Of a DNA stretch of 64,000 bases, positions 48,909 through 54,800 are shown piece by piece. This stretch comes from Marivirga harenae (GTDB lineage: Bacteria; Bacteroidota; Bacteroidia; Cytophagales; Cyclobacteriaceae). The position numbers were made by a program, and so were the translations under genes. Under the pieces are notes generated by a model, which saw nothing but the letters and a program-made list of their open reading frames with translations, made no database searches and was not told the origin of the DNA. Location: NCBI RefSeq assembly GCF_030534335.1, contig NZ_CP130565.1, positions 579,501 to 643,500 of the forward strand. Direction: 5' to 3'. Every line of letters begins with the position of its first letter. The first letter of the stretch is position 1.

Positions 48909-49595
48909 TTAAAATGTTAAAAATCTAAATCCAATTTTAAGCACATTCGTAGTGTTTAAATAGCCAAAGCTAGTAGAGGTTGGTGCTTGAAAGCTTTCTC
49001 CATCCACTAATACCTCTTTATTATTTCTGCGAACATATTGAAAGCCTATTTCGCCTCCAACATAAAAGCGCTCACCAAAGAAATATTCTGCTCCTATTGA
49101 GACTCTAGCACCAAATTGGGTGTAGCCTCGACCTCCTACAAATGAAGCCGGATTATTGGGTAATGATGTAGCGCCCAGTACCGTTGGCCCAGTACTTGAT
49201 TTTCGACTTGCAATTCGCTGACCAATCATTAAATCACCAGCCGCATATGAGCGAAATGAGCCTTCATTTATAAAATGATATTCAAAACCTGGCATTAGGT
49301 TCCACTCGCTATCATTGATCACTACATCAGGTGTTTGCTGATTATTGTTCAAATCCATATCCATTCCTAAGCGAACCGCCATTTCTTCTGTAATAAAATA
49401 GCGTGCCCTAAACTCAGAAAAGTTCAATAAGCTACTCCCGTCAAAGGGAGTTCCGGTCACCTCAAAGAGGAGATCTCCTGCCCCAGCCATTCCTCCCGAA
49501 CTACCTTCTTCCTCAGAACTTTCATCCTGAGCGAAAATAGGACATGAAAGCAATAGCAATGCAGATAAAAGCATCAATTGTTTTCTCATAGTCAT
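48909..49595 (-). CDS. Outer-membrane beta-barrel protein, first gene of the giant-protein operon
   Basis: A 228-residue protein with a signal peptide (LMLLSALLLLSCPIFAQ), an acidic/Gly linker (DESSEEEGSSGG) and then amphipathic strands: FRARYFITEEMAVRLGMDMDL, FEYHFINEGSFRSYAAGDL, GARVSIGAEYFFGERFYVGGEIGFQYV, ending VLKIGFRFLTF with a terminal Phe. It fits a small OM barrel. It lies 20 bases upstream of the 2521-residue protein and may help anchor or assemble it, which is an inference from position. Confidence 0.85.
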   Translation of the reverse strand: MTMRKQLMLLSALLLLSCPIFAQDESSEEEGSSGGMAGAGDLLFEVTGTPFDGSSLLNFSEFRARYFITEEMAVRLGMDMDLNNNQQTPDVVINDSEWNLMPGFEYHFINEGSFRSYAAGDLMIGQRIASRKSSTGPTVLGATSLPNNPASFVGGRGYTQFGARVSIGAEYFFGERFYVGGEIGFQYVRRNNKEVLVDGESFQAPTSTSFGYLNTTNVLKIGFRFLTF

Positions 49596-50227
49596 TGTTT
49601 TAATTTAATTAAACATTTATTTTTATTATTATTTTTGAATGATTTTGCACTAAATTAATAAATATTTCAACTAACACAATTTTTTTTGTCGAAAATAGTT
49701 GCAAATACCTATATATAGGTACATCAATATTACATTTCCTTATCCTATACTTTTGTATATCAGCAAATTACAATGTTTACCACCCTTATTGTTAATAAAT
49801 TATTACCTAGAACTGAGCTGATATTGGAATTATACTATTTTATATAGGAAGATAGTACCAAATAAATCCAATGTTTAATGATTTTCAAATTAAACTTGAG
49901 TAAATGACCTTAAACACCCCCCCACTTTGATTTCCAAAATTCTATCTCAATTTTCCCAATGTCACTTTCACTCAAAAAAAAAGGGACTGGCAATATTATT
50001 AAGGTCGAAAACAAACCTAATGAGACCTAAAGAATTATGCTTTTAAGTATTTCCGAATACCGAAAAAACACATCTAATAAGGAATAGGGAAGCCTGATAC
50101 TTTTAATGTTTAAAAAGCATAGAGCCTGGAAATTCCACAAACTTTTAGCGGGAGAAAAGAAGAAAAAAAATTGAGGGCGAACACCACACCCTCGATTGCA
50201 CCTGCCTTCGAAGAGAGACTCAAAGGC

Positions 50228-50383
50228 AGGGCAGAAGGGCAGCTATTTGTGGAGACATGTTTGAACAGAGAAGGAAAAAAACGAGCAGAAGGGGGCTGTT
50301 TTGTAGGAACCTGCCCGCTCAGACAGATACTATTGCTAGCAACTAGTCTGCCCACGATTGTGTCTCCACAATCGTTACCCAAA
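50228..50383. repeat. Direct repeat, left copy (flanks RAYT)
   Basis: Bases 50228-50289 are identical to 51423-51484 over 62 bases. Similarity continues at lower level to about 50383 and ends in an inverted REP palindrome in both copies. It includes a GAGCAGA ... GCTC hairpin-forming stretch. Confidence 0.85.
50354..50375. repeat. REP-like palindrome, inverted orientation
   Basis: Perfect 9-bp arms ACGATTGTG / CACAATCGT around TCTC. Confidence 0.8.
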
Positions 50384-50451
50384 ACAGCATGTTGCATAAC
50401 TGGATAGAACAAATGATATTATCGGCTTAACTGTAATGGATTCTCTGCAAT

Positions 50452-50473
50452 GCATTTGTGGAGACACAAATGC
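50452..50473. repeat. REP-like palindrome, forward orientation
   Basis: Perfect 9-bp arms GCATTTGTG / CACAAATGC around GAGA. The core TTGTGGAGACA is shared with the other copies. Confidence 0.8.
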
Positions 50474-50500
50474 GAGCAGAAGAGGGCTGTTTTGTTGAGC

Positions 50501-50518
50501 CCTGCCTGCGCAGGCAGG
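50501..50518. repeat. GC-rich palindrome upstream of RAYT
   Basis: CCTGCCTGCGCAGGCAGG is a perfect 18-base palindrome, of a type scattered through Bacteroidota intergenic DNA. Confidence 0.7.
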
Positions 50519-50601
50519 CACAAATGTGGGCAGAGTGGTACTGTTTTTTTAAATAAAAGCATTTTTATTAGTTTTATTTACAGTTTAAAAGTAAAGCCCT
50601 C

Positions 50602-51123
50602 ATGAAACTCAACAACCTATATTTCTTCACAGCAACAATAAAAAATTGGCTTCCCATTTTACAAAATGACCAGCTAAAGGATGTCATTATTAATAGTCTT
50701 AGGTATTTGAAAAATAATGATAAAATTAAAATTTATGGCTTTGTAATTATGCCAAATCACATTCATTTAATATGGGAATTAATCGATATGAATGGTAATG
50801 AAATGCCGCATAGTAGTTTTATGAAGTTTACTGGACATAAAATTATAAGATATCTACAAATTGATAAGTCCGACTATTTAGATAAAATCAAAGTTAATTT
50901 TAATGACAGGAATTACAATTTATGGAAAGAAAAACCAATGGCAATAGAACTTTATAGTCCAAATGTAATATACCAGAAACTTGACTATATTCATAATAAC
51001 CCTGTAAAAGGCAAATGGATGTTAGCAGAAAGTCCTTTAGAATACAAATATACATCAGCTAGATTTTATGAGAATGGTATAGATGAATTTAATGTTTTGA
51101 ACCATATTGGTGACGTCATTTAA
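50602..51123 (+). mobile_element. REP-associated tyrosine transposase (RAYT, Y1_Tnp)
   Basis: A 173-residue protein of the Y1/HUH superfamily. It has MPNHIHLIWEL, with the HIH pair at residues 53-55, and candidate nucleophiles Tyr124 and Tyr129 in VIYQKLDYIHNNPVKGKW. The length fits RAYTs, single-copy domesticated relatives of IS200/IS605 that nick REP palindromes, rather than full IS elements. It is AT-rich, complete, and has no partner gene. Related palindromes lie on both sides, several with a TTGTGGAGACA core, which supports the RAYT assignment. Confidence 0.88.
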
Positions 51124-51186
51124 CTAATGAAATCAATTCAGTACCTTTATTATACATTATAAATTATAATTAACTTTTGTTTGCAA

Positions 51187-51210
51187 TGCATTTGTGAGTA
51201 CACAAATGCA
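51187..51210. repeat. REP-like palindrome, forward orientation
   Basis: Perfect 10-bp arms TGCATTTGTG / CACAAATGCA around AGTA, i.e. the same arm as the copy at 50452 with a changed loop. Confidence 0.8.
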
Positions 51211-51232
51211 GGGGGAGAGACTATAAAAGCCC

Positions 51233-51254
51233 ACGATTGTGTCTCCACAATCGT
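51233..51254. repeat. REP-like palindrome, inverted orientation
   Basis: Perfect 9-bp arms ACGATTGTG / CACAATCGT around TCTC, identical to the copy at 50354. With the forward copy at 51187 it forms an inverted pair about 22 bases apart, as in a REPIN. Confidence 0.8.
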
Positions 51255-51400
51255 TACTGAGGGTGGCTCAATAAAGAAATAATTTGCATAGGTACCAATG
51301 CCAGCTTTCCTACGACTTAGTTTATGCCTATTTAAGCAAGTAGGAATTTCCCTGCGTGATAAAATAAAAAATATCAACTTGATTTTTAATTCCTTATTAT

Positions 51401-51421
51401 GCATTTGTGGAGACACAAATG
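51401..51421. repeat. REP-like palindrome, forward orientation
   Basis: CATTTGTG / CACAAATG arms around GAGA (51402-51421). The flanking C of the full 9-bp arm is lost on the right. Confidence 0.75.
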
Positions 51422-51422
51422 G

Positions 51423-51578
51423 AGGGCAGAAGGGCAGCTATTTGTGGAGACATGTTTGAACAGAGAAGGAAAAAAACGAGCAGACGAGGACAGTTTTGTA
51501 GAGATCTGTCTGCTCAGACAAATACAAACGCAAGCACCCAGTGTGCCCACGATCGTGTCTCCACCATTGTTACCGAAG
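51423..51578. repeat. Direct repeat, right copy (flanks RAYT)
   Basis: The counterpart of 50228-50383, identical over 62 bases and then diverged. It ends in a degenerate inverted REP (51549-51570, arms ACGATCGTG / CACCATTGT around TCTC). Confidence 0.85.
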
Positions 51579-51645
51579 ATAGAAGGATATAACTGAATAG
51601 TATTGAAAGCATCCTCAGCTTTACTGCTACGAATTCTCTGTATTT

Positions 51646-51683
51646 CATTTGTGTGGACTTGCCTGAGCAAGCCGGTACAAATG
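51646..51683. repeat. Longer palindrome at the right edge of the REP island
   Basis: Outer arms CATTTGT / ACAAATG with an inner CTTGC / GCAAG stem. It is related to the REP arm but with a different centre. Confidence 0.6.
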
Positions 51684-51866
51684 CGGGCGGAAGGATCTAT
51701 TATGAAGATTCATCTAATTAGTTAAGGACAATTCAAGAACATAGAAACTTGACAAAGCAAGGAGAATTTGAAATTTTAATAAATTCCACCTATCGCTACC
51801 ATTCATAAAAATATTTTCGGATTTAGATTAAAGCATTGGTATATTCCAACATAAAATCAAAATACT

Positions 51867-54800
51867 ATGAAAAGACTATATTATCTTATCTTAGCTATTT
51901 TCTTGACGCTTCCATATGGCATGGAAGCTCAAAAAAGAAAAGCTCAGGACACAAAATCTTATGACGAAAAGCTTTATGACGCTTTAGAATGGCGAGGTAT
52001 CGGCCCATTTAGAGGGGGTAGGTCTGCCGCTGTAACTGGTGTAGCAGATCAGCCTAATTTATTCTATATGGGTGCAACTGGTGGCGGGGTTTGGCGCACT
52101 AAAGATGGTGGAAGTACTTGGGAAAGTATATCTGACGGTCATTTTGGAGGATCAATTGGAGCTGTTGCAGTAGCAGAAAGTGATCCAAATGTGATTTATG
52201 TTGGCGGTGGTGAAAAAACTCTACGTGGAAATATGTCTTATGGCTACGGAATGTATAAATCAGTTGATGCTGGTAAAAACTGGGAGCATATTGGCCTTGA
52301 TAACAGTCGTCACATAAGCAGAATTAGAATTCACCCTCAAAATCCTGATATATTATATGTGGCCGTAATGGGTGATATTTTTAAGGATTCAGAAGAAAGA
52401 GGGGTTTATAAGTCAACCGATGGGGGCAAAACCTGGCAAAGAAAATTATTCGCCAATAAAAGAGCCGGAGCAGTCGATCTTATTCTAGACCCTAACAATC
52501 CTAGAATTATGTACGCCTCCACTTGGAATGTTCGTAGAAGCCCATCTAATTTCTCCAGTGGCGGACCTGGATCAGATATATGGAAATCTACTGATAGTGG
52601 GGAAAATTGGGTAAAATTATCAGTGAATAAGGGATTACCAAAAGGTGTTTGGGGAATTTCAGGCATTACAGTTTCTCCCAAAAACTCTAATCGATTATGG
52701 GCAATAATTGAAAATGAAAACGGTGGGGTGTTCCGATCCGATGATGCAGGTGAAACTTGGCAAAAAACTAATGATGACAGATCACTAAGGCAAAGGGCTT
52801 GGTATTACACTAGAATTTATGCTGATAGTCAAGATGAAGACATGGTATATGTAGTTAATGTAAGTTATCATCAATCAAAAGATGGAGGGAAAACTTTTAC
52901 TTCACATCGCGCCCCACATGGAGATCATCATGATTTATGGATAGATCCAAATGACAATCAAAGGATGATCATGGCGGATGATGGGGGTGCTCAAGTGAGT
53001 TTTGACGGTGGAGAAAACTGGAGCACCTATATGAACCAAAACACAGCCCAATTTTACCGAGTAACTACTGATAATCATTTCCCTTTCAGAATATATGGAG
53101 CTCAGCAAGATAATTCTACGGTAAGAATAGCGCATAGAACTACGGGCTCTGTAATTGGGGAGCAAGATTGGGAATCGACAGCTGGTGGTGAAAGTGCCCA
53201 TTTGGCGATTGATGAAAAAAATAATGATATTGTTTATGGCGGGAGCTATGATGGTTTTTTAACTCGATACAATCATAACTCAGAGGAAATCAGAGCCATT
53301 AACGTTTGGCCTGATAATCCGATGGGGCATGGTGCAGAAGAAATGAAATATCGTTTTCAATGGAATTTCCCGATTTTTACTTCTCCCCATGATCCCAATA
53401 AATTATATACTGCTTCCAACCATTTGCATGTTACCACCAATGAAGGTCATCAGTGGGAAACCATCAGTCCGGATTTAACAAGAAATGACCCAAGCAAATT
53501 AGGTCCCTCTGGTGGACCTATCACAAAAGATAATACCAGTGTTGAATATTACTGCACTATATTCGCAGCCATTGAATCTCCTTATGAGGAAGGTCTTTTA
53601 TGGACAGGATCTGATGATGGCTTAGTTCATGTCAGCAAAGATGGGGGTGAGAATTGGGAAAATGTTACACCTAAAAATATGCCTGAGTGGATTATGATCA
53701 ATAGCATTGAAGCAGATCCATTCACCAATGGTGGGGCCTATATTGCCGCAACTTCCTACAAAAACGGAGATTACCAACCTTATTTGTATAAAACCAAAGA
53801 TTATGGGAAAAGCTGGACAAAAATTGTAAACGGGATCCAAAATGACCATTTCACAAGGGTGGTTCGTGCAGATCCTGAGAAAAAAGGCTTGCTTTACGCG
53901 GGAACAGAAACCAAAATGTATATTTCATTTGATGATGGGGCTAGTTGGAAAGATTTCCAATTAAACTTACCAATTGTACCAATCACTGATTTAACTATTA
54001 AAGACAATCATTTAATTGCCGCCACTCAAGGTAGGGGGTTTTGGTTAATTGATGACTTGACAGTCATGCATCAATTAAGTGATGAGGTAAAACAAAATGA
54101 TTTTTACTTATTCCAACCCAAGAAAACATACCGGATTGGAGGAAGAAGTTATGAATCTAAAACTGCAGGTAAAAATATGCCTTCAGGAGTGATTACCTAT
54201 TTCCATTTAAACGACACGAGTGCAGCAGACACTGTGAAAATTCATTTCAAAGAGAAATCAGGAAAAGTGATTTCCACCTTTAGTACTCATCCTGATAAGA
54301 AAGCCAAAGAAGAAAAACTAACAGTTGAACCAGGTAGCAATCAATTGATCTGGAACATGCGATATCCTGATGCCGAAGATTTCGATGGGATGATCTTGTG
54401 GTGGTCATCAACTAGCGGACCAACAGCCTTGCCAGGGAAATACGATGTAGAACTTTCTTTGAATGGAGAAATACAGACCCAAGAATTTGAAATCGTGAAA
54501 GACCCTAGATCAAGTGCTACTCTAGATGATCTAAAAGCCCAGTTTGATTTCCAAACTGAAGTGATCACAAAACTTTCAGAAACGAACTTAGCCATAAAAG
54601 ATATCCGAAAAGCAAGAACTCAAATTGAGGATGTGATTAAGAAAGCCGAAGCCGATACCATTAAAAATATGGGGAAAAGCATTTTGGACGAAATGAAGGA
54701 AATAGAAGAGTCTTTGTATCAAACTAAAAACAGAAGCGGGCAGGATCCATTAAATTACCCAATCAGACTAAATAACAAATTGGGACACTTAAATAGTTTA

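Follow-up and report, generated by a model that had tools for sequence, protein, structure and literature searches.

A Bacteroidota RAYT gene and its clade-linked REP-like elements with a GCC foot

IS200 elements carry distinct left and right hairpins. REPINs, as Bertels and Rainey reportedly described them in 2011, are two inverted REPs that form a dispersed intergenic unit. Recognition of REPs has been dissected in vitro for three GTAG-type duos (PMC8266576), and in the E. coli enzyme the residues contacting the GTAG foot are W94, Q95, E100, H101, and R104 (PMC6006769). For Marinomonas, pairing of A3-G4 of GTAG with the CT at the cut site was proposed, and an altered foot shifted the cut; foot changes intended to shift the cut failed for the E. 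coli and Stenotrophomonas duos (PMC8266576). IS200 proteins are normally found as near-identical copies, with a mean of 4.8 copies at 99.4% identity (PMC6006769). For Bacteroidetes, Quentin et al. (2018) called the REPs of TnpA-Y1 subclass 2.6 atypical and located them by manual inspection (PMC6006769). A literature search for a Bacteroidetes REP consensus, whose scope lay outside Table S1 of Quentin 2018 and Bertels 2017, found none.

The window analyzed here, a 64-kb stretch of Marivirga harenae DNA, contains a RAYT (TnpA-REP) gene at 50602..51123 on the + strand. As the preliminary description had held, the gene is complete: it encodes 173 amino acids without an internal stop, and both the HuH motif and the tyrosine are present, placed in a Y1 fold by alignment and model. 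The HuH metal-binding motif MPNHIH (residues 50-55; 50749..50766, +) was located in an alignment of 42 rows, consisting of the window protein and 41 of 59 homologues (A2), in which N52 and H53 were invariant and H55 was kept in at least 90%. Y129, within LDYIHNNP (50986..50988, +), was likewise invariant (42/42), and from its role in the family we take it to be the catalytic tyrosine. A further alignment (A3) comprised 61 of 67 sequences together with the window protein. Scores against curated profiles were 77.2 bits for NCBIfam NF047646 (REP_Tyr_transpos; cut-off 80) and 20.6 bits for Pfam Y1_Tnp (cut-off 23). When solved proteins were searched by sequence, the sole plausible relative was E. 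coli TnpA-REP 4er8 (E 7.6e-5), two others lying near E 1, and the same structure was the top fold match of the predicted model (pLDDT 97.1; Z 13.8, 134 residues aligned, 2.7 Å). The E. coli guide-contact segment, W94-N105, corresponded in the alignment to residues 108-119 (WKEKPMAIELYS; 50923..50958, +), where the profile match scored low (10.2 bits). In this weak stretch, W94, Q95, E100, H101, and R104 fell opposite W, K, A, I, and Y of the window RAYT (E100, H101, and R104 opposite A114, I115, and Y118), and the consensus of its clade at these positions was W, Q, A, I, Y. The window protein has WKEK at the position of the clade-consensus WQRD.

Eight related hairpin elements, several of them degenerate, surround the gene and have a common TTGTG-CACAA core. 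The earlier count of at least seven palindromes is correct, since it is reached once the strong hairpins, the partial one, and the degenerate covariance-model copy are included. With at most one mismatch, TTGTGGAGACA occurred at 7 sites in the window (6 exact, 1 mismatched), all between 50247 and 51566 and on both strands, compared with 100 dinucleotide shuffles that averaged 1.17 and reached 3 at most. Upstream of the gene, REP F1 (50347..50380, +; foot TCTGCCC, hairpin 50354-50375, loop TCTC; 35.6 bits) is accompanied by its inverted partner R1 (50447..50480, -; hairpin 50451-50474, + strand loop GAGA; 32.5 bits) and by a partial R-type element (50503..50535, -) that consists of a small hairpin and then CACAAATGTGGGCAGA. 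Downstream lie R2 (51183..51216, -; hairpin 51187-51210, loop variant TACT, + strand AGTA; 29.6 bits); F2 (51226..51259, +; hairpin 51233-51254, loop TCTC; 34 bits), with a 29-nt core identical to that of F1; its inverted partner R3 (51396..51429, -; hairpin 51402-51421, + strand loop GAGA; 27.4 bits); the degenerate F3 (51542..51575, +; 13.5 bits by the covariance model; repeat family D5); and R4 (51646..51683, -). By a strict rule the order was F R gene R F R, and the element directly upstream of the gene was R, not F. Half-sites of TTGTGGAGACA without a full right arm were present at 50247..50257 and 51442..51452, both on the + strand.

The palindromes described initially are real, and part of their repetition is a composite of approximately 250 bp found on either side of the RAYT. 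The left copy (50215..50474, +) contains a half-site, F1, and R1, which sets its end, and the right copy (51410..51683, +) contains a half-site, F3, and R4, which sets its end; 50215-50460 and 51410-51653 were 79% identical. The TCTC-loop copies, taken in the preliminary description to be the inverted ones, are by foot orientation those that read foot-first on the + strand. In R4 and the partial element (51646-51683 and 50503-50535), the REP arms are intact and the loop is exchanged for a small GC-rich hairpin, resembling a palindrome grown inside a palindrome.

Oriented by its foot, the element has a GCC consensus foot, a 10-nt arm ending in GTG, the loop TCYY, CAC, and the returning arm. An alignment of 114 of 142 distinct windows from many genomes (A1; many of the 28 omitted were TTGT/TTTT-loop variants or near copies) gave the consensus nnnGCCnnGGTnnGTGTCnTCACnnACC. 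Elements were selected by stem and GTG tip rather than by foot, loop pyrimidine content serving only to choose the strand; the inner pairs of the stem are therefore no independent evidence, and the two outermost pairs, which selection did not force, were paired in 73/114 and 105/114. Of 146 elements, 114 had CC at -12/-11 and 83 had GCC at the foot, whereas each of five other offsets showed GCC in 1-2 elements. The mark of a canonical GTAG REP, GT[AG]G immediately 5' of the hairpin, was seen at the foot position in 1/146 elements and within a few bases in 3/146. Variant tips also occurred, among them GTC, GAG, and loops of 3 or 5 nt. The F and R elements of one locus have a common inner arm and different outer arms, with an outer-arm identity of 0.49 between F and R and 0.82 between same-orientation copies (26 loci with both comparisons, p=0.0003), and the unit thus has two distinguishable ends. 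A fixed GG or GC site or cut dinucleotide was sought near the elements and was not found. Two simpler search patterns were discarded. With 2 mismatches, ATTTGTGGAGACACAAAT returned 3 sites only, too narrow a pattern because the arms vary, and TTGTGTCTCCACAA returned 36 sites versus 23 for its reversed control, so that most of its weak matches are due to chance; an exact TTGTGTCTCCACAA match at 89350 lacked arms outside the core and was left uncounted.

Around RAYT genes, the feet of the elements pointed mostly outward, with 53 F and 14 R upstream and 59 R and 20 F downstream. The same arrangement was observed at 72 loci outside the training set (80 named loci minus 8 that duplicate training loci), where the nearest upstream element was F in 25 cases and R in 5, and the nearest downstream element was R in 21 and F in 2.

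To relate the elements to the RAYT beside them, perfect hairpins within 600 nt of a RAYT gene were surveyed for the share with a GTG[4]CAC tip. All five such hairpins at the locus itself had the tip, as did 77/87 hairpins (27/29 loci) beside the closest homologues, L090-L118; 64/118 (25/40 loci) in the next set, L119-L158; and 18/43 beside intermediate RAYTs. None of the 32 perfect hairpins within this distance of distant RAYTs, and none of the 11 beside six paralogues in the same genome, had it; other kinds of palindrome, often with 3-nt loops, were found there. Beyond 800 nt from the gene hairpins were few, and the tip was present in 1/2, 3/7, 1/7, and 0/2 in the four comparison sets. At the 72 fresh loci, it occurred in 91/190 hairpins within 600 nt versus 9/56 beyond 1,000 nt. 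At least one tipped hairpin lay within 600 nt of the gene at 31 of these loci and none at 41, and among the latter, 24 loci had a covariance-model match at some position (E<=0.05) and 17 had none.

The inner arm followed the RAYT phylogeny. When the inner-arm hexamer was mapped on the RAYT tree (113 of 116 rows, after removal of 3 that have internal stops; L034 and L035 had no tblastn match), 67 rows with 7 states required 11 changes, compared with a mean of 41 and a minimum of 36 in 300 shuffles. Arm types TTCGTG, TCTGTG, TGAGTG, and TTGGTG fell largely in separate RAYT clades, and the window RAYT, whose element has TTTGTG, was positioned near L091, L094, L096, and L098, likewise TTTGTG, in a tree of mixed support (49/110 inner branches under 80). 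RAYT columns 102 and 106 covaried with arm type and are common to sister clades, for which reason no recognition code is claimed for them. Overall, hairpins, tip survey, genome copies, and tree agree in giving this RAYT specific flanking REPs and in assigning the element to its clade.

The elements are not confined to the island, a possibility that would have counted against the initial reading. With 150 of 289 candidates scored, the covariance model gave approximately 13 copies at five loci of the genome, two further weak matches being excluded. Six lie in the RAYT island (weakest E 8.75) and the others at 451.9, 2060.6, 2221.5, and 3371.5 kb, four sites that are all intergenic between ORFs of at least 80 aa. 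F and R were both identified by the model at two of the dispersed sites, and at 2060.6 and 2221.5 kb the partner was recognized by eye only. Inverted pairs are thus dispersed in intergenic DNA in the manner of REPINs, at a copy number that is not high.

Across genomes, presence of the element tracks the RAYT clade, in support of the preliminary description's reading of a RAYT with its own REP/REPIN-like palindromes. Among 295 genomes of the family, at least one copy was found in 76/83 with a close RAYT (E <=1e-26) versus 80/212 without, a comparison that includes model-training genomes and counts copies beside the RAYT; in 7 of the 83 no element was detected. Genomes without a close RAYT were in part as rich, as had been considered at the outset, with at least 10 copies in 25/212, yet 45/83 of those with a close RAYT reached this number. 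Among 296 genomes sampled from the phylum, the element was present in 10/11 with a clade RAYT (E <=1e-50) and 7/285 without, in 6/7 and 4/281, respectively, outside the training family, and in 5/63 genomes with only distant RAYTs. Both clade thresholds, 1e-26 and 1e-50, were chosen after the results were seen, and high copy counts in the two surveys are lower bounds, as 23 candidates were scored per genome. Four elements at 127-bp spacing were noted at G097:C9:186848-187262, where the strongest RAYT match of the genome reached just E 4e-18, and RAYT matches stood side by side in one locus at G165:C9:511554-512429 and G269:C6:300719-302399.

Very probably the island represents a REPtron of Bacteroidota whose foot is not GTAG; recognition and mobilization are inferred. 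The RAYT is a HuH/tyrosine single-strand nuclease that, to go by its counterparts in E. coli, Stenotrophomonas, and Marinomonas, would bind only the folded, foot-first strand. It would read foot, inner arm, and loop, with the foot acting as a guide, and may cut and rejoin DNA near the element. The mobile unit, or REPIN, would be F plus R, inverted and with feet outward, and RAYT genes of the clade tend to sit between such outward-facing elements. In favor of this reading are the fold match, the tip and foot linked to the clade, the agreement of inner arm and RAYT tree, the orientation of the elements, their two ends, and the absence of both the island and the dispersed pair at 451.88 kb from the corresponding gap of three congeners each. 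Against it count the loci and genomes with a RAYT but no element, the element-rich genomes that lack a close RAYT, the variant tips, the tipped hairpins far from the gene, the failure to find a fixed GG or GC site, the low copy number, WKEK in place of WQRD, and the R element directly upstream of the gene.

The RAYT with its outward F and R ends might instead be an IS200/IS605-like element in itself, with the scattered pairs as its shortened relics, a reading that overlaps with the REPtron and that we regard as unlikely. The F-upstream, R-downstream order of nearest elements at most fresh loci would suit it, as would the syntenic gap of three congeners, which lacks the island. Blocks matching window positions 49802 and 51797, 2.0 kb apart in the window, are separated by only about 0.26 kb in G221 and 0.62 kb in G208, and in G246 both flanking genes are neighbors by contig coordinates with no RAYT between them. 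The remaining 6/9 congeners were uninformative, as the neighbor was missing from the stretch or the contig ended, and divergence of the intergenic DNA was too great for the exact island ends to be fixed. Across the nine congeners, the top RAYT match has 46% identity (E 2.0e-48), which also fits such an element. Against it, a 361-bp island-flank query matched only the island and short pieces in the genome, and the closest paralogue by tblastn, L041, is 32% identical, far from the near-identity normal for IS200 proteins; the genome yielded no set of near-identical copies of the gene with its ends. The equivalent gap of G246 (L305) holds other palindromes, each twice (CATCTGACGG..CCGTCTGATG and AGCGGACGCTTGCGCT), and for that reason the gap may attract palindromic repeats. 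In all, the M. harenae genome has 10 IS200-like (Y1) matches, one being the window RAYT and two overlapping. Six of them, L036-L041 (G000:C1 489393, 498705, 2065484, 2347782, 3010363, and 3509679), are read as other RAYTs, so that the single RAYT of the preliminary description is the sole one at the locus but not in the genome. Palindromes neighboring these six differ in sequence, and L037 and L038, near-identical to one another, have hairpins of the GTTCGACATT type. L034 and L035 (G000:C1:3323979 and 3431174) are two stronger IS200-like transposase matches, the latter with an internal stop.

A REPtron that has decayed and is inactive, its copies being relics that arose in some cases by segmental duplication, would be compatible with the family assignment. 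Degenerate elements, the two half-sites, the composite on both sides of the gene, the departure of the RAYT from the clade WQRD, and the low copy number are all in keeping with decay, which we nonetheless judge improbable: the ORF is open, HuH and Tyr are intact, and F1 and F2 have retained identical cores. In addition, three congeners (G055, G208, and G235) lack the F-R pair at 451.88 kb and have 3-24 bp there instead of 100-112. The right end of this pair lies near the GGGCA foot, and its simplest reading is a gain here, the alternative being loss elsewhere. Perfect hairpins in intergenic DNA would also agree with ordinary terminators of transcription, or with RNA elements that merely adjoin the gene, yet this reading is highly improbable given a fixed foot and loop, an orientation tied to the RAYT, and an inner arm that matches the RAYT clade; an Rfam scan of 49500-52000 gave nothing at gathering score, and the position table had no T-run 3' of the hairpin.

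For the REPtron with a GCC foot, the Marinomonas guide rule, if it also applies to a foot whose last bases are CC, would predict cutting at GG, or at GC by a second scheme, and not at CT. It is conceivable, though we put this forward only tentatively, that a large Bacteroidota RAYT clade has a guide code of its own, with a GCC foot, E/H/R replaced by A/I/Y, and inner hexamers particular to sub-clades (TTTGTG, TTCGTG, TCTGTG, TGAGTG, TTGGTG). With a searchable consensus, a non-GTAG foot, two ends, and a clade-wise arm match, recognition code and cut-site rule become directly testable, and the natural arm swaps between sub-clades are usable as controls.

Among described systems, REPINs share with the present elements the inverted pairing of REPs and the scatter through intergenic DNA; here copy number is low and the ends are unlike. 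The IS200/IS605 family has the same enzyme fold and likewise two distinct hairpin ends, and differs in the near-identical gene and end copies that this genome lacks. The E. coli REPtron (group 2; 4er8) resembles the present one in its HuH/Tyr fold, in a foot 5' of the hairpin, and in combining two REP types, y and z, comparable to the F and R ends; its foot is GTAG and its stem is bulged, whereas the elements here have a GCC foot and a perfect stem (PMC8266576). The Stenotrophomonas and Marinomonas REPtrons (group 3) have perfect short stems, as found here, and loop bases that matter, but they retain the GTAG foot in place of GCC (PMC8266576). TnpA-Y1 subclass 2.6 (Bertels group 5) is similar in length, in NH[LIV]H and YIH[QN]NP, in its Bacteroidota relatives, in flanking structures without GT[AG]G, and in copies elsewhere in the genome (PMC6006769). 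The window RAYT has NHIH, YIHNNP, 173 aa versus approximately 179, and named relatives in Bacteroidota; in place of the WQ of the subclass it has WK, the consensus of its clade being WQ. In the available part of its text, the description of the subclass (PMC6006769) gives no element consensus, whereas the element found here is defined by a GCC foot, a GTG-TCYY-CAC tip, two ends, and an arm that matches the RAYT clade.
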